Shown piece after piece: positions 27,314 through 45,381 of a stretch of DNA of 49,632 bases; position 1 is the first letter of the stretch, and every line of letters starts with the position of its first letter. The notes below the pieces were generated by a model, which searched no databases, was not told the DNA's origin, and saw only the letters and a list, made by a program, of their open reading frames with translations. A program made the translations under genes and the position numbers. Origin of the DNA: an uncultured Eubacteriales bacterium (GTDB lineage Bacteria; Bacillota; Clostridia; Christensenellales; Aristaeellaceae); the NCBI GenBank assembly GCA_902778995.1, contig CACYZW010000024.1, forward strand, positions 1 through 49,632, written 5' to 3'.

Positions 27314-30100
27314 CTACCGCTTGACCACCTTGACCTTGCATTTCAGCGTCTTGCCGTTCTTAACCTTCGCTGTGATGGTGCAACTGCCGGCCTTCTTCGC
27401 CGTGACCTTGCCGTTCTTGACCGCGGCAACCGCCTTGTTGCTGGAGGACCAGGTGACCGTGCGGCCCACGAGGCCGGAGACTTTCAGGGTAAAAGTACTG
27501 CCTTTTTTAAGAGACAGGGATGTCCTGGAGAGCTTGGCCGGGTCGGTGACCCTGACCTTGCATTTCAGCGTCTTGCCGTTCTTGACCTTCGCTGTGATGG
27601 TGCAGCTGCCGGCCTTCTTCGCCGTGACCTTGCCGTTCTTGACCGCGGCAACCGCCTTGTTGCTGGAGGACCAGGTGACCGTGCGGCCGAAGAGGTTGGA
27701 GACTTTCAGCTTGTGAGTGTCGCCAATCTTCATGGACAGGGAGGTCTTTGAGAGTTTCTCCTTATCTGTTATATCGACGACGTCAATGGAATGATTTTGC
27801 GCCCACTTGTAAGCGTCGGAGTCGGAGTAGGTATAGATCGTGAGACAGAAAACAGGGTCATGGGGGTCACCAAATGCGTTTTTATGAATTTTTATTGGCT
27901 TGGCAAGAATGGTGGCGCTGGCCAGGTCTTCGTTTTGATCGAAGGCCCCTTCCCCAATGCCGGTGACGCTGTCGGGTATGATGACGTTGGTCAAACCGCA
28001 CGCATAGAAGGCTCTCGCTCCAATGCTGGTGACGCTGTCAGGTATGATGACGCTGGTCAAACCGCAAAAATAGAAGGCAGCTTCCCCAATGCTGGTAACG
28101 CTGTTGCCAATGGTGACGCTTTTCAGTCTTTCACAGAACAAGAAGGCATGTTCCCCAATGCTGGTGACGCTGTTGCCAATGGTGACGCTTTTCAGTCTGT
28201 CGCACGATTTAAAGGCATATTTCCCAATGCTGGTGACGCCGTTGCCAATGGTGATGCTGGTCAGATTGTTACAGCAACTGAAGGCATATTCTCCAATGCT
28301 TTTTACGCTATCTGGAATGGTTGCGCTGGTTTTTGCACCGGGACACTGGAGCAGGGTTTTCATATTATGGGTATACAATATACCTTTTTTTGAAGCAAAA
28401 TAACGATTTTTACTGGATACTTTGATCTCTTTGAGCCTGTTGCATCCTCCGAAGGCCAAATTCCCAATGCTGGTGACGCTGTCGGGTATGGTGACGCTGG
28501 TCAAACCGCACGAATAGAAGGCTTTCTCTCCAATGCTGGTGACACTGTTGCCAATGGTGACGCTGGTCAGGCTGCCACAGCCAGAGAAGATACCTTTTTC
28601 GATGCCAGTGACGCGGTTGCCAATGGTGACGCTGGTCAGGTTGTCACAATCACGGAAAGCATCCTTCCCAACGCTGGTGACGTTGCCCAGTATGGTAACG
28701 CTGGTCAAGCCGGATCTATAGAAGGCTTCCTCTCCAATGCTGGTAACGCTGCCAGGTAGGGTGATGCTTGTCAGGCTGGAACAGTCTATGAACGCCCATG
28801 AGTCAATGCTGGTGACGCTGTCCGGGAGGGTGACGTCGGTCAGGCTGATGCATTTCCAGAAGGCACCAGCCCCAATGCTGGTAACGCTGCCAGGTATGGT
28901 GACTCTGGTCAGGCTGTCGCAATTCCTGAAGGCACCATACCCCATGCTGGTGACGCTGCCCAATATGGTGGCGCTGGTCAGGCGTCTGCACTCAGCGAAA
29001 GCCTCTTTTCCAATACTGGCGACGCTGTCGGGTATGGTGAGGCTGATCAGGCCGCACTTATAGAAGGCTTTCTCCCCAATGTCGGTGACGCTGTTGCCAA
29101 TAGTGACATTGGTCAGACTGTCACAGCCAGAGAAGATATCATTGATAATGCTGGTGACGCTGTTGCCAATGGTGACGTTGGTCAGGCTGTCACAGCCATA
29201 GAAGTTATATTTTCCAATACTGTTGACGTTGCCCAATATAATGATGCTGATAAGGTTGGTACAATCCTGGAAAGCTCCGCGCTCAATGTCTGTGACGCTT
29301 TCGCCAATGGTGACGCTGGTCAGGCCTTTGCACGAATAAAAGGCCTCCTGTCCAATATTGGTGACGTTGTTGGGTATGGTGACGCTGGTCAAACCGCACG
29401 AATAGAAGGCTCTCGCTCCAATGCTGGTGACGTTGTCCGGGATGGTGACGCTGGTCAAACTGTCGCATCCGAAGAAGGTCTCATCCCCAATGCCGGTGAC
29501 GCTGTCCGGGATGGTGACTCTGGTCAAGCTGTCACATAAAACGAAGACACCATTCCCAATGCTGGTGACGCTATCGGGTATGGTGACGCTGGTCAGACTG
29601 GAGCACCTTTCGAAGGCACCATTCCCAATGCTGGTGACGCTGTCCGGGATGGTGACTCCGGTCAGATCGGTGTACATATAGAAAGCCTTATCCCCAATAC
29701 CGGTGACGCCATCGGGAATGACGACATCGCCGCCATTGCCTATATAATCGACCAGCACACCGTTATCATCAATAATAAACGCATCGTGGTCATAATTTCC
29801 GTCTGTATAGCTGTTCGACGCGGCCGGCACGTCCTTCGGCTGAACCTCTTCGTCGAGCATCAATGCATCGAGGCCGTCGTCCAGTATGATGCCGTCCTGC
29901 CCGAAGAGGCCCTCCGGGATGAGACCGTCTTCCTCCGGCACAATCTCCAGGCTGTCCTCCACCGATATCTCATCGGGGAAGATCTCCCCCTCATCCAATT
30001 CAATCGCGATATTCCCCTCGGCCAGCATGCCCGCGGGCAGCGTGGCGAAGACCATCAGCGCGACCAACAGGATCGCCGAAAGCCGATTCCGCAACTTCAT
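27314..30100 (-). CDS. Large secreted BspA-like LRR protein with two Big_2 domains
   Basis: 928 residues. A signal peptide (1-27, LPAGMLA-EG) is followed by an acidic linker and a long LRR_5 array (about 105-770). Roughly 25-30 repeats of about 23 residues show the pattern LTSVTIPDSVTSIG..AF..C. A short island (residues about 560-600, KEIKVSSKNRYFASKKGILY) interrupts the array, as is common in BspA proteins. Two Big_2 domains (about 780-928) finish the protein; they are almost identical, with a 74-residue (222-bp) period. No sorting signal is seen. Likely a surface or secreted binding protein. The promoter carries an unusual inverted repeat. Confidence 0.88.
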   Translation of the reverse strand: MKLRNRLSAILLVALMVFATLPAGMLAEGNIAIELDEGEIFPDEISVEDSLEIVPEEDGLIPEGLFGQDGIILDDGLDALMLDEEVQPKDVPAASNSYTDGNYDHDAFIIDDNGVLVDYIGNGGDVVIPDGVTGIGDKAFYMYTDLTGVTIPDSVTSIGNGAFERCSSLTSVTIPDSVTSIGNGVFVLCDSLTRVTIPDSVTGIGDETFFGCDSLTSVTIPDNVTSIGARAFYSCGLTSVTIPNNVTNIGQEAFYSCKGLTSVTIGESVTDIERGAFQDCTNLISIIILGNVNSIGKYNFYGCDSLTNVTIGNSVTSIINDIFSGCDSLTNVTIGNSVTDIGEKAFYKCGLISLTIPDSVASIGKEAFAECRRLTSATILGSVTSMGYGAFRNCDSLTRVTIPGSVTSIGAGAFWKCISLTDVTLPDSVTSIDSWAFIDCSSLTSITLPGSVTSIGEEAFYRSGLTSVTILGNVTSVGKDAFRDCDNLTSVTIGNRVTGIEKGIFSGCGSLTSVTIGNSVTSIGEKAFYSCGLTSVTIPDSVTSIGNLAFGGCNRLKEIKVSSKNRYFASKKGILYTHNMKTLLQCPGAKTSATIPDSVKSIGEYAFSCCNNLTSITIGNGVTSIGKYAFKSCDRLKSVTIGNSVTSIGEHAFLFCERLKSVTIGNSVTSIGEAAFYFCGLTSVIIPDSVTSIGARAFYACGLTNVIIPDSVTGIGEGAFDQNEDLASATILAKPIKIHKNAFGDPHDPVFCLTIYTYSDSDAYKWAQNHSIDVVDITDKEKLSKTSLSMKIGDTHKLKVSNLFGRTVTWSSSNKAVAAVKNGKVTAKKAGSCTITAKVKNGKTLKCKVRVTDPAKLSRTSLSLKKGSTFTLKVSGLVGRTVTWSSSNKAVAAVKNGKVTAKKAGSCTITAKVKNGKTLKCKVKVVKR
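27331..27690 (-). repeat. Near-identical 222-bp duplication encoding the two Big_2 domains
   Basis: The DNA from about 27331 to 27468 is repeated 222 bases further on (from 27553) with only a few substitutions. This is a recent in-frame domain duplication in the LRR protein gene. Confidence 0.8.
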
Positions 30101-33219: not shown

Positions 33220-33660
33220 ACCGGCAGCGCCGGTAATGATAGCATGTGTCCTGTAGCCGTTTTTATCCTTGAAGGCCGAAATCCAGGCCGGTTTGCCTTA
33301 TATTGTTGCGCCGCACGATATATGGCGCCGCACGGGCAAACAAGGGGGAAAAGCCTGTGCGGCGCCGCAAAAAACAGAACACGCCGGATCTTCGTCCAAA
33401 CATGTCCTGTATGATTGCATTGCTTTTCTTTGGGGAGGAATCGGCAGGGCCCACCGGCGCGAGATCTTTGCCGGCGAACTCTCGCAATCGTACACGCGAA
33501 ACGGACAGGTACCAGCTGCCGTTCCGCCGTCTGAGGCTGGAAGCGGTTTCCAGGTTCAGCCCTTGGGCCGAACCGCGAGCTCCTCACCCCTGGGGATTGA
33601 AGCGCCGCGCCCTGAGACATATCCTTCTTTAGTCCGAAGAAGTCGATACGTTCTTTCCAC
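33220..33660 (-). other. Long structured leader between cobalamin riboswitch and SDR gene, no credible gene
   Basis: About 440 bases with several hairpins on the minus strand: CTTCTT/AAGAAG, GGTTCGGCCC/GGGCTGAACC, GCGGAACGG/CCGTTTCGC, and a long GGCGCCGCAC/GTGCGGCGCC pair (about 33324-33366). Open frames here have no recognisable similarity and clash with the RNA structures. It may be an untranslated leader, a small RNA, or a degraded gene that the riboswitch once controlled. Confidence 0.45.
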
Positions 33661-33865
33661 AGGCAGGTCTTCTGACTTGGTTTCATCGCGCCCGACCGCC
33701 TTCTCAGCCCTTCGGTCGTCGCCCCTCGGTCAACGCCTGCGGCCAATGGCTTGCTTTGTGGACGCTCCGCTTCACAGCAGCGGTCCTGTCGGAGAATCCC
33801 ACTCCGTTCCCTATTCTCCCCGCCCGCCTGTTCAGCGCAGGCTGCAGGGCACCTGTGAATACCCG
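33661..33865 (-). ncRNA. Cobalamin (adenosylcobalamin) riboswitch
   Basis: The minus strand shows the class hallmarks in order: GGTGCC near the 5' end, AATAGGGAAC, GTGGGATTCTCC, CTGCTGTGAAGCG, GCCATTGG, GATGAAACC, and the closing B12 box AAGTCAGAAGACCTGCC (33662-33678). Cobalamin riboswitches usually repress B12 uptake or synthesis genes or B12-independent isozymes. Here no such gene follows; the next is the SDR at 33199. It has its own promoter just upstream. Confidence 0.92.
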
Positions 33866-33886
33866 GTTATTCTGTTTTCCAAGGGT

Positions 33887-40985: not shown

Positions 40986-42056
40986 TTGAAGAAAATCGTT
41001 CTCACCGGCGGCGGGACCGCCGGACATGTCACGCCCAACCTGGCGCTGATTCCCCGTCTCAGGGAAGATGGGTGGGAAATCCACTACATTGGCGCGGCGG
41101 ACAGCGCCGAGCAGGCGCTGATCTCCCAGGTGGAGGGCGTCAGCTTCTACACGGTGTCCGTGGGCAAGCTGCGCCGCTACTTTGACCCGAAGAATTTTTC
41201 CGACCCCTTCCGGGTCATCAAAGGCGTGCGCCAGGCGACGAAGCTCATCAAAAAGATCAAGCCCAACGTGGTTTTCTCCAAGGGCGGCTTCGTATCGGTG
41301 CCCGTCGTGTACGGGGCGAAGCTGAACGGCGTGCCCGTGGTCAGCCATGAATCGGACATGACCCCCGGCCTTGCCAACAAGCTGTGCCTGCCCTTTACGA
41401 AGGTTCAGTGCTGCACCTTTCCCGAAGCGGTCAAATACGCCAGGGGCAAGGGCGTGCACACCGGTTCCCCGATCCGCCCCGAGATATTGAAGGGCGACAA
41501 GGAGAGGGGGCGCAGGCTTTACGGCCTGAACAACAGCCGGCCCGTGCTGATGGTGATGGGCGGCTCCAGCGGGGCGCAGGCCATCAACCAGGTGGTATGG
41601 CAGTGCCTGCCCAAGCTGACGGAAAACTTCCAGGTGCTGCATCTGTGCGGCAAGGGGAACCTTTCCCCGGTGCTGGAGGGCACGGACAATTACACCCAGG
41701 TGGAATACCTGAACGACGACAGGGAGATGGCCGACGCCTACGCCTGCGCGGACATACTGGTTTCCAGGGCGGGAAGCAATTCGCTGTGCGAGATACTGGC
41801 CGTGCGCAAGCCGGCGCTGCTGATTCCCTATCCCAAGGGCGCCAGCCGGGGCGACCAGATATTGAACGCGGAATCCTTCCGTGCCCAGGGCTTCAGCTAC
41901 GTGCTCCAGCAGGAGGATATGACGCCGGAGACCCTCATCAAGGGCATCGAAAAGCTGTATCACGACCGCGGGGCGCTCTACGAGGCCATGGCGACCGAGC
42001 CCACCGCCAACGGCATTGACAAGGTGCTTGAACAGATATATAAGTATGCAAAATAA
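40986..42056 (+). CDS. murG: UDP-N-acetylglucosamine:lipid I N-acetylglucosaminyltransferase
   Basis: 356 residues. A GT-B glycosyltransferase that converts lipid I to lipid II on the inner face of the membrane. IVLTGGGTAGHVTPNLAL contains the GGTAGH loop; FSKGGFVSVPVV, HESDMTPGLANK, MGGSSGAQAIN and SRAGSNSLCEILA match the donor- and acceptor-site motifs. HESDMTPG in place of HEQNxxPG marks a clostridial-type MurG variant. The start codon is TTG at 40986, with AAAAGGGG about 9 bases upstream. It is isolated from the usual mur/fts cluster and lies next to the origin region. A terminator follows at once. Confidence 0.93.
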   Translation: MKKIVLTGGGTAGHVTPNLALIPRLREDGWEIHYIGAADSAEQALISQVEGVSFYTVSVGKLRRYFDPKNFSDPFRVIKGVRQATKLIKKIKPNVVFSKGGFVSVPVVYGAKLNGVPVVSHESDMTPGLANKLCLPFTKVQCCTFPEAVKYARGKGVHTGSPIRPEILKGDKERGRRLYGLNNSRPVLMVMGGSSGAQAINQVVWQCLPKLTENFQVLHLCGKGNLSPVLEGTDNYTQVEYLNDDREMADAYACADILVSRAGSNSLCEILAVRKPALLIPYPKGASRGDQILNAESFRAQGFSYVLQQEDMTPETLIKGIEKLYHDRGALYEAMATEPTANGIDKVLEQIYKYAK

Positions 42057-42102
42057 AAAGCGCGAAAGCGCTTTTCAGGATGTTGACTTTGTCAACATCC
42101 TG
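42057..42102 (+). terminator. murG terminator followed by a second hairpin
   Basis: AAAGCGC / GCGCTTT with a GAAA loop and a short T run lies directly after the stop codon. One base later a perfect 12-bp stem, CAGGATGTTGAC / GTCAACATCCTG, has a TTT loop (42076-42102). Confidence 0.7.
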
Positions 42103-42106
42103 CAGG

Positions 42107-42270
42107 CCGCTGAAAAAGGCCGCAAGGCAAGGCGGCGAGCCTGCAAAAAAGGGCGTTTACCCCGTCGTAAATGACCGCATTTTGCAGGCGATGCCAACAC
42201 AGCAAGCAGAAAATCCTTCCGATCTTCTTCTTTCGGAAGGATTTTCTGCGTTTGAGGGCTTTTTCAGCGG
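42107..42270. repeat. Dispersed structured repeat, long form
   Basis: The outer arms CCGCTGAAAAAGGCC (42107-42121) and GGGCTTTTTCAGCGG (42256-42270) enclose two inner hairpins: CCTGCAAAA/TTTTGCAGG (42140-42188) and a perfect 17-bp stem at 42206-42222/42233-42249 (GCAGAAAATCCTTCCGA). A three-way junction is predicted by eye. The short form at 5725-5809 keeps the outer arms and the last hairpin only. Confidence 0.7.
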
Positions 42271-42374
42271 AATGAAGACACGAAAACGCTTTTTTTCTGT
42301 GATATATATGTGACATATACCAGAGAAAAGGGGGGAGTACGAAATATGAATCGGTACATGTTTGACGGTCATGG

Positions 42375-43264
42375 GTGACAGGTTACAACGATGGAGTGGA
42401 ATCTACAACAAATTGGTAGCGAGTTTTTTTGCGGCATGCCGCCCTTGAGAGAGACAGCGAGTATCGTATATCAAATTCGGAGATGTAGTTGAAGCTCTTA
42501 CAGATTGTTTATCTGTATTATACAGGTGATATGCTGCAACGATGGAGTGGAATCTACAACAAACTGCAATCGAGGTTTTTTGCGGCATGCCTTACGAACC
42601 GGGAAAGTCGCTGCATCATCTTCCGAGAGTCACGCGCCCAGCACTCCACGGCCTCGTTTGTGAACAGGCGGGCCGTGGAGGCTGTGCCACCGTAACTCTC
42701 TACAGATGATTTCGCTCATTCAAACGGTTCGTGCCGGCATGCCGCTTCTGAAGGAGACAGCGAGTATCGTATATCAAATTCGGAGATGAGAGTGACAGGT
42801 TACAACGATGGAGTGGAATCTTCAACAAACTGCAATCGAGGTTTTTTGCGGCATGCCTTACGAACCGGGAAAGTCGCTGCATCATCTTCCGAGAGTCACG
42901 CGCCCAGCACTCCACGGCCTCTGGCATGACTTAATCGTCTCTGGTTTATTCTATCCTTGTTTGTGAACAGGCGGGCCGTGGAGGCTGTGCCACCGTAACT
43001 CTCTACAGATGATTCCGCTCATTCAAACGGTTCGTGCCGGCATGCCGCCCATTATGGGGACAGCGAGTATCGTATATCAAATTCGGAGATGTAGTTGAAT
43101 CTCTTACAGATTGTTTATCTGTATTATACAGGTGATATGCTGCAACGATGGAGTGGAATCTTCAACAAACTGCAATCGAGGTTTTTTGCGGCATGCCGCC
43201 CATTATGGGGACAGCGACAATCGTGGTCAGAATTCGGAGATGTAGTTGATGCTCTTGCAGATTT
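42375..43264. repeat. Modular direct-repeat region upstream of dnaA
   Basis: Modules recur in the order A-D-E, A-B-C-D, A-B-C-D-E, A-D-E. A contains CAACGATGGAGTGGAATCT and ends TTTTTTGCGGCATGCC. B starts CTTACGAACCGGGAAAGTCG. C contains GAACAGGCGGGCCGTGGAG. D contains GACAGCGAGTATCG. E contains the palindrome CTGTATTATACAG (42513-42525 and 43119-43131). GGCATGCC marks module joints at 42433, 42584, 42736, 42850, 43039 and 43190. B and C ends pair (CCACGGCC/GGCCGTGG); copy three has about 37 extra bases in that loop. No DnaA box lies inside the modules and no gene is credible. Confidence 0.85.
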
Positions 43265-43338
43265 ACTATGATAGTACCTGATACAAACTGTTCTTTTTTC
43301 GTTCAGGGTGTAGCCGCTTACTGACTGTCGTAACTTTA

Positions 43339-43507
43339 GAATATTCGTAACTATTCAGTCGCGCACTCCCTCCGACCCGCTTTGCGGGCCAGCTCCCTCT
43401 CTGAGGGAGCTGGCGCGTAGCGCCTGAGGGAGTTAGAGGGAGCTGGCTGGCCGTCAGGCCAGACTGAGGGAGTTCTCTCCTGATGGACTGAACAGATACG
43501 AATATTC
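43339..43507. mobile_element. MITE-like element with 22-bp terminal inverted repeats
   Basis: The ends 43339-43360 and 43486-43507 are inverted repeats matching at 20 of 22 positions; both contain GAATATTC at the outside and TTCAGTC at the inside. The 125-base interior is a string of hairpins made of ACTCCCTC, AGCTCCCTC and GAGGGAGCT units, CCGC/GCGG, and TGGCC/GGCCA. It has no coding capacity. Similar inner hairpins occur at 24207-24225. Target-site duplication is not obvious, so mobility is inferred. Confidence 0.6.
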
Positions 43508-43525
43508 AACGAATAATCATTTTCA

Positions 43526-43850
43526 TCTCCGAATTTGATATACGATACTCGCTGTCCCCTTCAAGGGCGGCATGCCGGCACGAACCGTTTGAATGAGCGG
43601 AATCCAACCGTAGAGGATCACTGTGGCACAGCTCTCCGGCACGCCGTACCAGCGACAAAGTTATCAAAAAGAGGTATGAACATCTGTCGTCTGTATATAT
43701 TTTGCGTTGCCGGTAGAGATGTGCGCGTGATCCTCGAAGGTGGATGCAGCGACTTTCCCGGTTCGTAAGGCATGCCGCAAAAAACCTCGATTGCAGTTTG
43801 TTGAAGATTCCACTCCATCGTTGCAGCATTCCATCTGTATTATACAGATA
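43526..43850. repeat. Inverted copy of the dnaA-upstream modules
   Basis: Read on the minus strand this is A, B, a diverged C and D, with two GGCATGCC joints (43569 and 43769) and the palindrome CTGTATTATACAG at 43835-43847. The C part keeps only its CATTCAAACGGTTCGTGCC end; about 70 bases (43650-43720) differ. Together with the direct copies it makes a large inverted repeat around the MITE-like element. Confidence 0.8.
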
Positions 43851-43894: not shown

Positions 43895-44034
43895 TGTGGA
43901 TACCCCAATTTGACAAAACCCGCGAAAAAAACGCGCTTTATATGGCTTTCTATGGACTTTTCAACACCGTGATGCTAAAATAAACTCGGTATGTTATCCA
44001 CAAGCTGTGCAATAATCCGCCTGTGTTATCCACA
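43895..44034 (+). promoter_or_regulatory. dnaA promoter with DnaA boxes
   Basis: TGGACT (43953-43958), 17 bases, TAAAAT (43976-43981) with extended TGC form the promoter. Two perfect boxes TTATCCACA lie just downstream at 43994-44002 and 44026-44034, in the dnaA leader. A one-mismatch box (TGTGGATAC on the plus strand, 43895-43903) lies upstream. This layout fits autorepression by DnaA and one arm of a bipartite origin. Confidence 0.8.
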
Positions 44035-44058: not shown

Positions 44059-45381
44059 ATGAATTACACGCCTGAAGACAAGGCGAAATGGGATAAGGTC
44101 ATCCAGATGATGGAGGAGACGTTGGTCAGATCGGCCCAACGCCCCTTCTTTGATACGTTCATCAAGCCCCTGAAGCTGTACGCCGTCACGTCGGACACAC
44201 TGTACATTAGCGGCGACACCTCGTTCAACATCCGCCATGTGCAGAGCCGCTATGCCACGATGATCTACAGCACCGTGCCGCTGGTGTTCGGCCGCCGCTA
44301 CGAGCTGGAATACTACACCGAGGCGGAAATCGCTCGGGTGGTGAACCAGCTTCGCCAGAATACGCTGAACCCGATGTACACCTTCGACAACTTCATCATC
44401 GGCGCATCCAACAACTTCGCGTATGCGGCGTCGCTGGCCGTTGCCCAGACCCCCGGCGAGGTCTACAACCCCCTGTTCGTCTACGGCGGCGTCGGCCTGG
44501 GAAAGACCCACCTGATGAACGCCATCGGCAATTACATCGCCGCCCAGAACGGCCGCCTGAACGTGCTGCTGATGACCAGCGAGACCATGACCAACGAGCT
44601 GATCGAAGGCATCGCCCGGAAAAAGACCTCCGAGCTGAGAAGCCGACTGAGAAACGTGGACGTGCTGATGGTGGACGACATACAGTTTCTTTCCCGCACA
44701 AAGGCCACCCAGGAGGAGTTCTTTCACACCTTCAACAGCCTGCACGACAACAAAAAGCAGATCATCATCGCCTCGGACCGCCCGCCCAAGGAGCTGCCCG
44801 AGATCGAGGAGCGCCTGCGCTCGCGGTTCGAATGGGGGCTGATCGTGGACATCCAAAAGCCCGACTACGAGACCCGCGTGGCCATACTGATGCAGAAGGC
44901 CAACGAAATGGCCATCGACGTGCCCTACGACGTGATAGAGTACATCGCCCAGAGCGTCAATTCCAACATACGGGAGCTGGAGGGCTGCCTGAACAGCCTG
45001 AACGCCCACGCCGAACTGATGCGCACCCCCATCACGCTGGAGATGGCGCGCGCCACGCTTTCGGGGCGCATCGGCTCACAGGCCGCCCGCGCGGTGACGC
45101 CGGAGCTGATCATCGACATGGTCGCCCGCCAGTACGACACCACCGCCGAGGACATCACCGGCAAGAACCGCAGCCAGCAGATCGCCCTGCCCCGGCAAAT
45201 CGCCATGTACATATGCCGCAGGATGACCACGCTGTCCACCACCAGCATCGGCAGGGCCTTCGGCGGGCGGGACCACACCACGGTGATGCACGGCTGCGAC
45301 AAGATCGCCGCCTCCATGAACGCCGACTTCGCCTTCAAAAAGAAGGTGGAGGAGATCATGGGGCTGATCGAGAGCCGATGA
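44059..45381 (+). CDS. dnaA: Chromosomal replication initiator protein DnaA
   Basis: 440 residues. The AAA+ initiator that binds DnaA boxes and melts the origin. Domain I runs to about 80 with a very short linker (domain II); NPMYTFDNFIIGASNNFAYAA opens domain III. Walker A GGVGLGKTHL is near 144-152, Walker B is VLMVDDIQFL, and IIASDRPPKELPEIEERLRSRF is the sensor 1/box VII region. Domain IV ends with GGRDHTTVMHGCDKI, the DnaA signature that contacts the box. The ATG at 44059 follows GGAGG 11 bases upstream; no other start fits. dnaN lies 213 bases downstream, in the classical order. Confidence 0.97.
   Translation: MNYTPEDKAKWDKVIQMMEETLVRSAQRPFFDTFIKPLKLYAVTSDTLYISGDTSFNIRHVQSRYATMIYSTVPLVFGRRYELEYYTEAEIARVVNQLRQNTLNPMYTFDNFIIGASNNFAYAASLAVAQTPGEVYNPLFVYGGVGLGKTHLMNAIGNYIAAQNGRLNVLLMTSETMTNELIEGIARKKTSELRSRLRNVDVLMVDDIQFLSRTKATQEEFFHTFNSLHDNKKQIIIASDRPPKELPEIEERLRSRFEWGLIVDIQKPDYETRVAILMQKANEMAIDVPYDVIEYIAQSVNSNIRELEGCLNSLNAHAELMRTPITLEMARATLSGRIGSQAARAVTPELIIDMVARQYDTTAEDITGKNRSQQIALPRQIAMYICRRMTTLSTTSIGRAFGGRDHTTVMHGCDKIAASMNADFAFKKKVEEIMGLIESR

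Follow-up and report, generated by a model that had tools for sequence, protein, structure and literature searches.

The repeat array between murG and dnaA in the genome of an uncultured Eubacteriales bacterium is, with high probability, a local pile-up of members of a family of non-autonomous mobile repeats found in this genus. Homologous elements are dispersed in the genomes of related bacteria, paired positions of the characteristic hairpin of this family covary, the elements in one of these genomes (G005) have terminal inverted repeats and, in part, target duplications, and the array is absent from the orthologous gap in close relatives. The window, that is, the entire analyzed stretch of 49,632 nucleotides, encompasses, in this order, murG (40986-42056, plus strand; NF009102 and TIGR01133 above the cut-offs), which is the upstream boundary of the gap, the array, located approximately 210 to 1680 bp upstream of dnaA, dnaA itself (44059-45381, plus strand; TIGR00362, 501.1 bits with a cut-off of 343.9), dnaN and mnmE.

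As claimed in the preliminary description of this DNA, the modular repeat upstream of dnaA is real: its four direct arms start at 42375, 42526, 42792 and 43132, and a fifth, inverted arm ends at 43834, the module content being A-D-E, A-BC-D, A-BC-D-E, A-D-(partial E) and, inverted, A-BC-D. The proposed layout of modules A to E holds as well, except that B and C form opposite sides of a single hairpin, and E is not a separate module but rather looks like an interior stub plus flank. Within an arm, A is the terminal part with a T-run, BC an optional hairpin and D the GGGGAnCAGCGAG motif. Arm 1 (42375-42485, plus strand as are all features through arm 4) is an A-D arm without a hairpin that contains a single GCGGCATGCCGC at 42431-42442 and is followed by E (42486-42525), the interior stub and flank with CTGTATTATACAG at its end. 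Arm 2 (42526-42791; covariance model match at 42574-42768, E 2.8e-13) and arm 3 (42792-43091; match at 42840-43071, E 2.9e-13) both have the A-hairpin-D structure; the arm 2 hairpin (B+C) is located at 42582-42745, with the basal stem GCGGCATGCC/GGCATGCCGC, and the apical part of arm 3 is 37 nt longer than that of arm 2. A second E (43092-43131) with CTGTATTATACAG at its end (43119-43131) is followed by arm 4 (43132-43242), again A-D without a hairpin, whereas the inverted arm 5 (43524-43834, minus strand) is A-hairpin-D, with the hairpin at 43567-43778 (minus strand). Arm 4, the interior and the inverted arm probably constitute a complete element (43132-43834), with a central, MITE-like inverted repeat of the GAGGGAG type seen in the sequence at about 43360-43480; the inverted arms match over 92 nt at 93%. 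Direct copies of CTGTATTATACAG at 43119-43131 and 43835-43847 flank this putative element, and because this 13-bp direct repeat is palindromic except for the centre base, it is weak evidence of a target duplication at the window locus.

RNA folding gives -88.9 kcal/mol (z -8.53) for the arm 2 hairpin (42584-42743) and -95.8 kcal/mol (z -8.81) for that of the inverted arm (43569-43776); the apical loops are longer in the hairpins of arm 3 and the inverted arm, and comparison by eye of the inverted arm with arms 2 and 3 reveals paired changes in the upper stem. The palindrome GGCATGCC, which had been described at eight module junctions, is indeed present in 8 copies within 42433-43776; the whole window contains 10 copies (2 outside the array) compared to 2.8 expected, a number not attained in any of 100 shuffles. 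Given that B and C are two sides of one hairpin, the GGCATGCC copies flanking BC are its stem arms. Thus, GGCATGCC forms the stem base in a long hairpin with imperfect pairing and is not a recombination joint, and the earlier notion of module loss at a fixed joint remains apt as a description although the joint turns out to be the hairpin base. The possibility that the array is a repeat assembly artefact is scarcely credible: the genome is indeed a draft consisting of 239 contigs, but simple misassembly is disfavoured because the arms differ from one another at several bases (the 66-nt A pieces show 82-98% pairwise identity, that is, a 2-18% difference), and a comparable tandem array is present in another genome. 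This second array, on contig C19 of G026, comprises three hairpin-bearing 212-bp units in direct orientation; the dnaA gene of G026 is on contig C20, so that such arrays are no peculiarity of the dnaA region.

When the 28 genus genomes were searched at the DNA level, G003 and G011 were the only ones besides the source genome to yield matches, each of them short; these belong to hairpins of ~90 nt that have the same ends and other stem sequences. The first covariance model, built from 9 of these ~90-nt hairpins, produced matches in 9 of the 28 genomes, the source genome not being among these, and matched the window at 42580-42747 with an E-value of 8.2e-11. The second model, built from 21 copies from 8 genomes and applied at E<=1e-4, gave 192 detected matches in 12 of the 28 genomes, a count from which copies may be missing, the scoring having been capped at 128 first-look candidates per genome. 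The main carriers are G015 (42), G026 (41), G005 (36), G011 (33), G010 (12) and G027 (11), with the remaining matches in G009 (8), G020 (3), G003 (2), G024 (2), G013 (1) and the source genome (1); the long-looped window copies score poorly, with 2 of 3 reaching E<=1e-5. Searches with stricter filters at the family level (18 candidates scored per genome) and at the order level (9 candidates per genome) produced matches in 7 of 200 genomes and 1 of 50 genera, and in 3 of 396 genomes and 1 of 142 genera, respectively, all in the same genus; under these strict filters, there were no matches in the other sampled genera. The hairpin family had no match in phage and plasmid records, and two exact patterns had none among viral contigs; one exact pattern searched against genome contigs gave 4 matches, in actinobacterial and proteobacterial records. 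A narrow search of the open-access literature on dispersed hairpin repeats, REPIN/RAYT, BOX and dnaA/oriC repeats retrieved nothing resembling the hairpin family.

The pairing within the hairpin is maintained across the family by changes on both sides of the stem. In the 21 copies, 93.1% of the 461 cells are paired compared to 71.5% in shuffles, and 17 of the 22 pairs show changes on both sides compared to 12.3; pairing, both-sided changes and the covariation score each exceed all 500 shuffles, which ignore relatedness among the copies, in counts that leave out the alignments with the window copies, in which the surroundings of the apical insertion are misaligned. Of the five measures, the number of further pair types is a weak one: it is 32 compared to 29.0, a value reached by 56 of 500 shuffles. 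When the partner is slid by 1-3 columns, pairing falls to 34-41%. Conserved features are also found at unpaired positions, namely, the T-run before the hairpin, the apical AC..GC, the CTCG of the internal loop and, following the hairpin, GGGG..CAGCGA, so that the family features reside in A (the T-run), BC (the hairpin) and D (GGGGACAGCGAG), and not in E. In the relatives, the basal stem reads GGCTTGCC/GGCAAGCC, GGCATACC/GGTATGCC and so on: the pairing is retained and the 8-mer is not conserved, and the two stem arms are complementary, yet unlike as direct repeats.

The evidence of mobility comes primarily from G005. In the 7 aligned copies, the left edge is sharp, and the 18-base end CAGGGCGACATCATTTAC (with up to 3 mismatches) has 40 matches in this genome compared to 1 for the reversed control. 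Among 30 loci, 10 that were chosen for apparent paired ends were read, and 9 of these gave pairs, with 18-bp terminal inverted repeats enclosing 113-423 bp; the flanking direct repeats are perfect 10-bp ones in 4 pairs, match at 9 of 10 positions in one and are reduced to a shared 6-mer in another, with none in the remaining 3. The hairpin is located inside 6 of the 9 pairs, 3 of which have a clear duplication, and in 2 of the 3 pairs without it, the same frame encloses an unrelated GGGGAAGG cassette. In two loci with this cassette in the G005 frame (L239 and L260), the 10-bp target duplications are perfect. The G005 elements are MITEs with the hairpin as optional content. Among the hallmarks of MITEs, terminal inverted repeats are present both in the G005 ends and in the inverted arms of the window, and target-site duplications accompany part of the G005 copies. 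The ends of the window element (GTGACAGG/GTGATATG) and, by eye, those of the G011 elements are unlike the G005 ends. Hence, the conservation in this family is inside the element and not at its ends, and a single common transposition system is an assumption. Taken together, the dispersed homologues, the terminal repeats and partial duplications in G005, and an unrelated dispersed repeat in the same gap support non-autonomous mobile DNA, which was among the roles initially envisaged. It is rather doubtful, and at best conceivable, that the hairpin with GGGGAnCAGCGAG is itself the recognized, mobile unit, a DNA structure that is bound by an enzyme, moved between unrelated frames, and prefers the origin or the murG-dnaA gap.

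The location of the array next to dnaA had raised the prospect of a role in initiation control, and a further G015 family element, an arm without the hairpin, was identified by reading in the same murG-dnaA gap (L104, reverse strand, about 800-1120). However, the array is absent from this gap in the closest relatives by DnaA identity, G006 and G014 (92%) and G012 and G023 (90%), where the gap is 218, 216, 353 and 214 bp long, respectively (one locus, L094, was judged by gap length only), and these four genomes have no covariance model match; no family element was seen by reading in the gap of the sister species G026 (L103) either. The earlier statement that the modules carry no DnaA box is correct: TTATCCACA is absent from 42375-43850 even when one mismatch is allowed, and two exact, DnaA-box-like TTATCCACA sites (at 43994 and 44026, spanning 43994-44034, plus strand) are outside the array, beside dnaA. 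Accordingly, a DnaA-titration locus, which implies a DnaA-box cluster within the array, was rejected. We matched dnaA in 27 of the 28 genus genomes (28 loci), and the hairpin occurs within 1.5 kb of it (E<=0.01) in 2 of the 27, the source genome and G015 (E 2.8e-4), with some of the searched flanks ending at contig ends, for example, after 431 bp in G003. The dnaA-bearing contigs of the 11 other family-carrying genomes do contain 10 loci compared to 2.7 expected (Poisson P 5e-4); all 10 are from G010, G011, G015 and G026, for which the lists are complete, whereas for the other seven genomes, the expectation is based on total matches, with unlisted copies in G005, G009, G013 and G027 counted as lying elsewhere. 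The copy density is uneven in general, with 5 loci on contig C33 of G010 compared to 0.55 expected and 6 on contig C18 of G026 compared to 0.73, so this P value is too optimistic given that other contigs are equally dense. The excess could be due to gene dosage close to the origin or to the gap being tolerant, and in view of this possible excess, the link to the origin is weakened, not erased.

The preliminary description had proposed searching for the modules in the complete genome and in relatives. In the source genome, an 83%-complete draft, which bears on this outcome, they were found at this locus only, so that movement is not seen within that genome; the relatives carry dispersed copies. 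By the test proposed at the time, restriction to this locus would count in favour of the origin, an argument that is weakened by the incompleteness of the draft and the wide scatter of the family in the relatives. Moreover, the murG-dnaA gap is shared by unrelated repeats. Just upstream of the array (42091-42277, plus strand) is a separate dispersed MITE-like repeat outside the hairpin family, with 26-nt ends in inverted orientation that are 81% complementary; the query 42085-42285 has 51 matches in the source genome when its own locus is counted, 40 of which exceed 100 nt, and by eye, the same repeat is also present in the gap of G003 (L101), whereas the gap of G010 contains a RAYT-type repeat. 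With the majority of the family copies located elsewhere in the genomes, control of replication initiation by the array, whether through protein binding, DnaA titration or origin structure, is exceedingly unlikely and was rejected as the main reading, given the lack of a DnaA box, the absence of the array from the gap in close relatives and the proximity to dnaA in only 2 of 27 genomes. Elsewhere in the window, we observed a cobalamin riboswitch (33645-33871, minus strand; RF00174, 93.6 bits) and diverged 66-69-bp tandem repeats at 27941-29709 that probably encode a repeat protein.

Several other explanations of the hairpins were weighed against a mobile repeat family. A site-specific recombination or cassette system acting at GGCATGCC, similar to integron attC sites, would be in line with the common 8-mer wherever modules join, with neighbours that vary at orthologous sites and with the varying contents of a single terminal-repeat frame in G005. 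This reading is nonetheless very improbable and for the most part refuted: the 8-mer is not conserved, which led us to reject recombination at GGCATGCC, and in the relatives, the stem arms differ as direct repeats; furthermore, in comparison with attC, no cassette genes were seen within the arrays, and many copies form inverted pairs. That the hairpins represent a structured RNA family, a small RNA or an mRNA-processing signal, with selection acting on the RNA, is unlikely too, notwithstanding the strong covariation and the conserved unpaired bases such as the apical AC..GC and CTCG. Selection on one transcribed strand is expected to leave more G-U pairs than A-C mismatches. With repeated copies counted, the 129 rows do show a prevalence of G-U (82 vs 43), in favour of the RNA reading. 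Among the 85 rows distinct in paired bases, the counts are 45 and 38 (P 0.51), with no clear strand bias, and the same holds for 43 representatives (21 vs 15, P 0.41) and 27 representatives (11 vs 8, P 0.65). From these uncalibrated counts, we are leaning towards reading the distinct rows as selection at the DNA rather than the RNA level. The T-run precedes the hairpin and does not follow it, and there is no Rfam match at the gathering score in the array; at lax thresholds, the hairpin matches in the array and six relative loci are chance-like only. A T-box below the gathering score was detected in locus L014, outside the hairpins.

That the hairpins are REP/BIME repeats of the classical kind, mobilized by a RAYT (TnpA-REP) enzyme, is quite improbable. 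The hairpins are dispersed and occur in inverted pairs and tandem clusters, Y1/RAYT genes are present in 16 of the 28 genus genomes, and a left flank similar to GGGGACGG is, by eye, reminiscent of the repeats that surround RAYT genes. Nevertheless, no family hairpin was found at 30 Y1 loci at E<=0.2 (best E 0.25), the six Y1 loci that were read carry their own, different repeats, the family hairpins exceed REPs in length, and no Y1 gene was found in G011, G005 and G003, which have 33, 36 and 2 family matches, respectively. At L192, L193, L198, L203, L205 and L207, RAYT-type genes are flanked by repeats with a GGGGACGGTTC-like core. On the basis of the CAGGG ends, we had presumed dependence on an ISAs1 transposase; this candidate was rejected, PF13808 not being found in the family-carrying genomes G005, G011, G015 and G026. 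This domain was found in G000, G012, G023, G016 and G019 (and below the cut-off in G017), and no terminal repeats were recognized around three ISAs1-type loci. Five stretches with family copies revealed no transposase among 26 ORFs; 23 ORFs under 700 aa were judged by eye, and 10, including the three longest, were searched in Pfam, yielding FtsK, a peptidoglycan-binding protein, a metallo-beta-lactamase-fold protein and seven without a match, among which several are probably spurious frames. No related autonomous element was found in the draft genomes of the genus.

In its organization, the mobile repeat family invites comparison with BOX elements of Streptococcus pneumoniae, which are described as modular and MITE-like, with an optional middle module, and are predicted to fold if transcribed; they have terminal inverted repeats and target duplications, form clusters, insert into each other and are limited to few species (PMC3049150). 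The hairpin family and BOX, so described, are alike in being modular with a middle module that is optional, in clustering, and in having terminal repeats and duplications, a likeness of organization only. In contrast to BOX, the optional module here is a large covarying hairpin that either one of two inverted arms may carry; between genomes, the hairpin is retained and the ends vary. Similarly, REP, BIME and REPIN elements are hairpins that form inverted pairs and tandem clusters and are dispersed (PMC8266576, PMC3116915), as is the present family. The latter differs from these elements in its hairpin size of ~90-210 nt (~90 nt in the relatives and 160-208 nt folded in the window) compared to 20-50 nt for REP, in its absence from the RAYT genes at the 30 Y1 loci, and in that no GTAG-type tag was seen by eye in its hairpins. 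The G005 elements resemble MITEs in having 18-bp terminal repeats, a 113-423-bp length and, in part, 10-bp duplications, but unlike in MITEs, the hairpin and an unrelated cassette alternate within one terminal-repeat frame. Across the family, it is the interior rather than the ends that is conserved, in contrast to ordinary MITEs. We file these elements as a MITE-like family with BOX-like working that is a member of neither BOX nor REP.

A full element of this mobile family would consist of two arms in inverted orientation, each with a T-run-bearing terminal part, optionally a hairpin of ~90-210 nt, and the conserved GGGGAnCAGCGAG motif; the exact ends of the window element given here are putative. 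Such elements would insert between genes, in this case in the space separating murG from the dnaA leader, become nested in each other and duplicate in tandem, presumably being transposed by a transposase acting in trans. The modularity would be BOX-like, with hairpins lost by slippage. Arms without a hairpin were observed not only in the window (arms 1 and 4) but also in G005 (L240) and G015. In the lineage of the source genome, the basal stem has become the palindrome GGCATGCC, such that its two arms are also direct repeats; the hairpin, looped out during replication, could then be lost through a clean deletion, probably by slippage, leaving one GCGGCATGCCGC in arms 1 and 4. The lone GCGGCATGCCGC in these arms would be the product expected from deletion between two GGCATGCC copies.

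Collectively, these observations put a structured mobile repeat family, with 192 detected matches and so far seen in one genus only, in place of an origin-control locus, a lead that is likely to be false. The conserved part of this family is the inside and not the ends, and pairing is retained among distinct copies with no clear G-U bias, a pattern suggestive of DNA-level selection or correction. The array also shows how a palindromic stem can make a hairpin a removable module.
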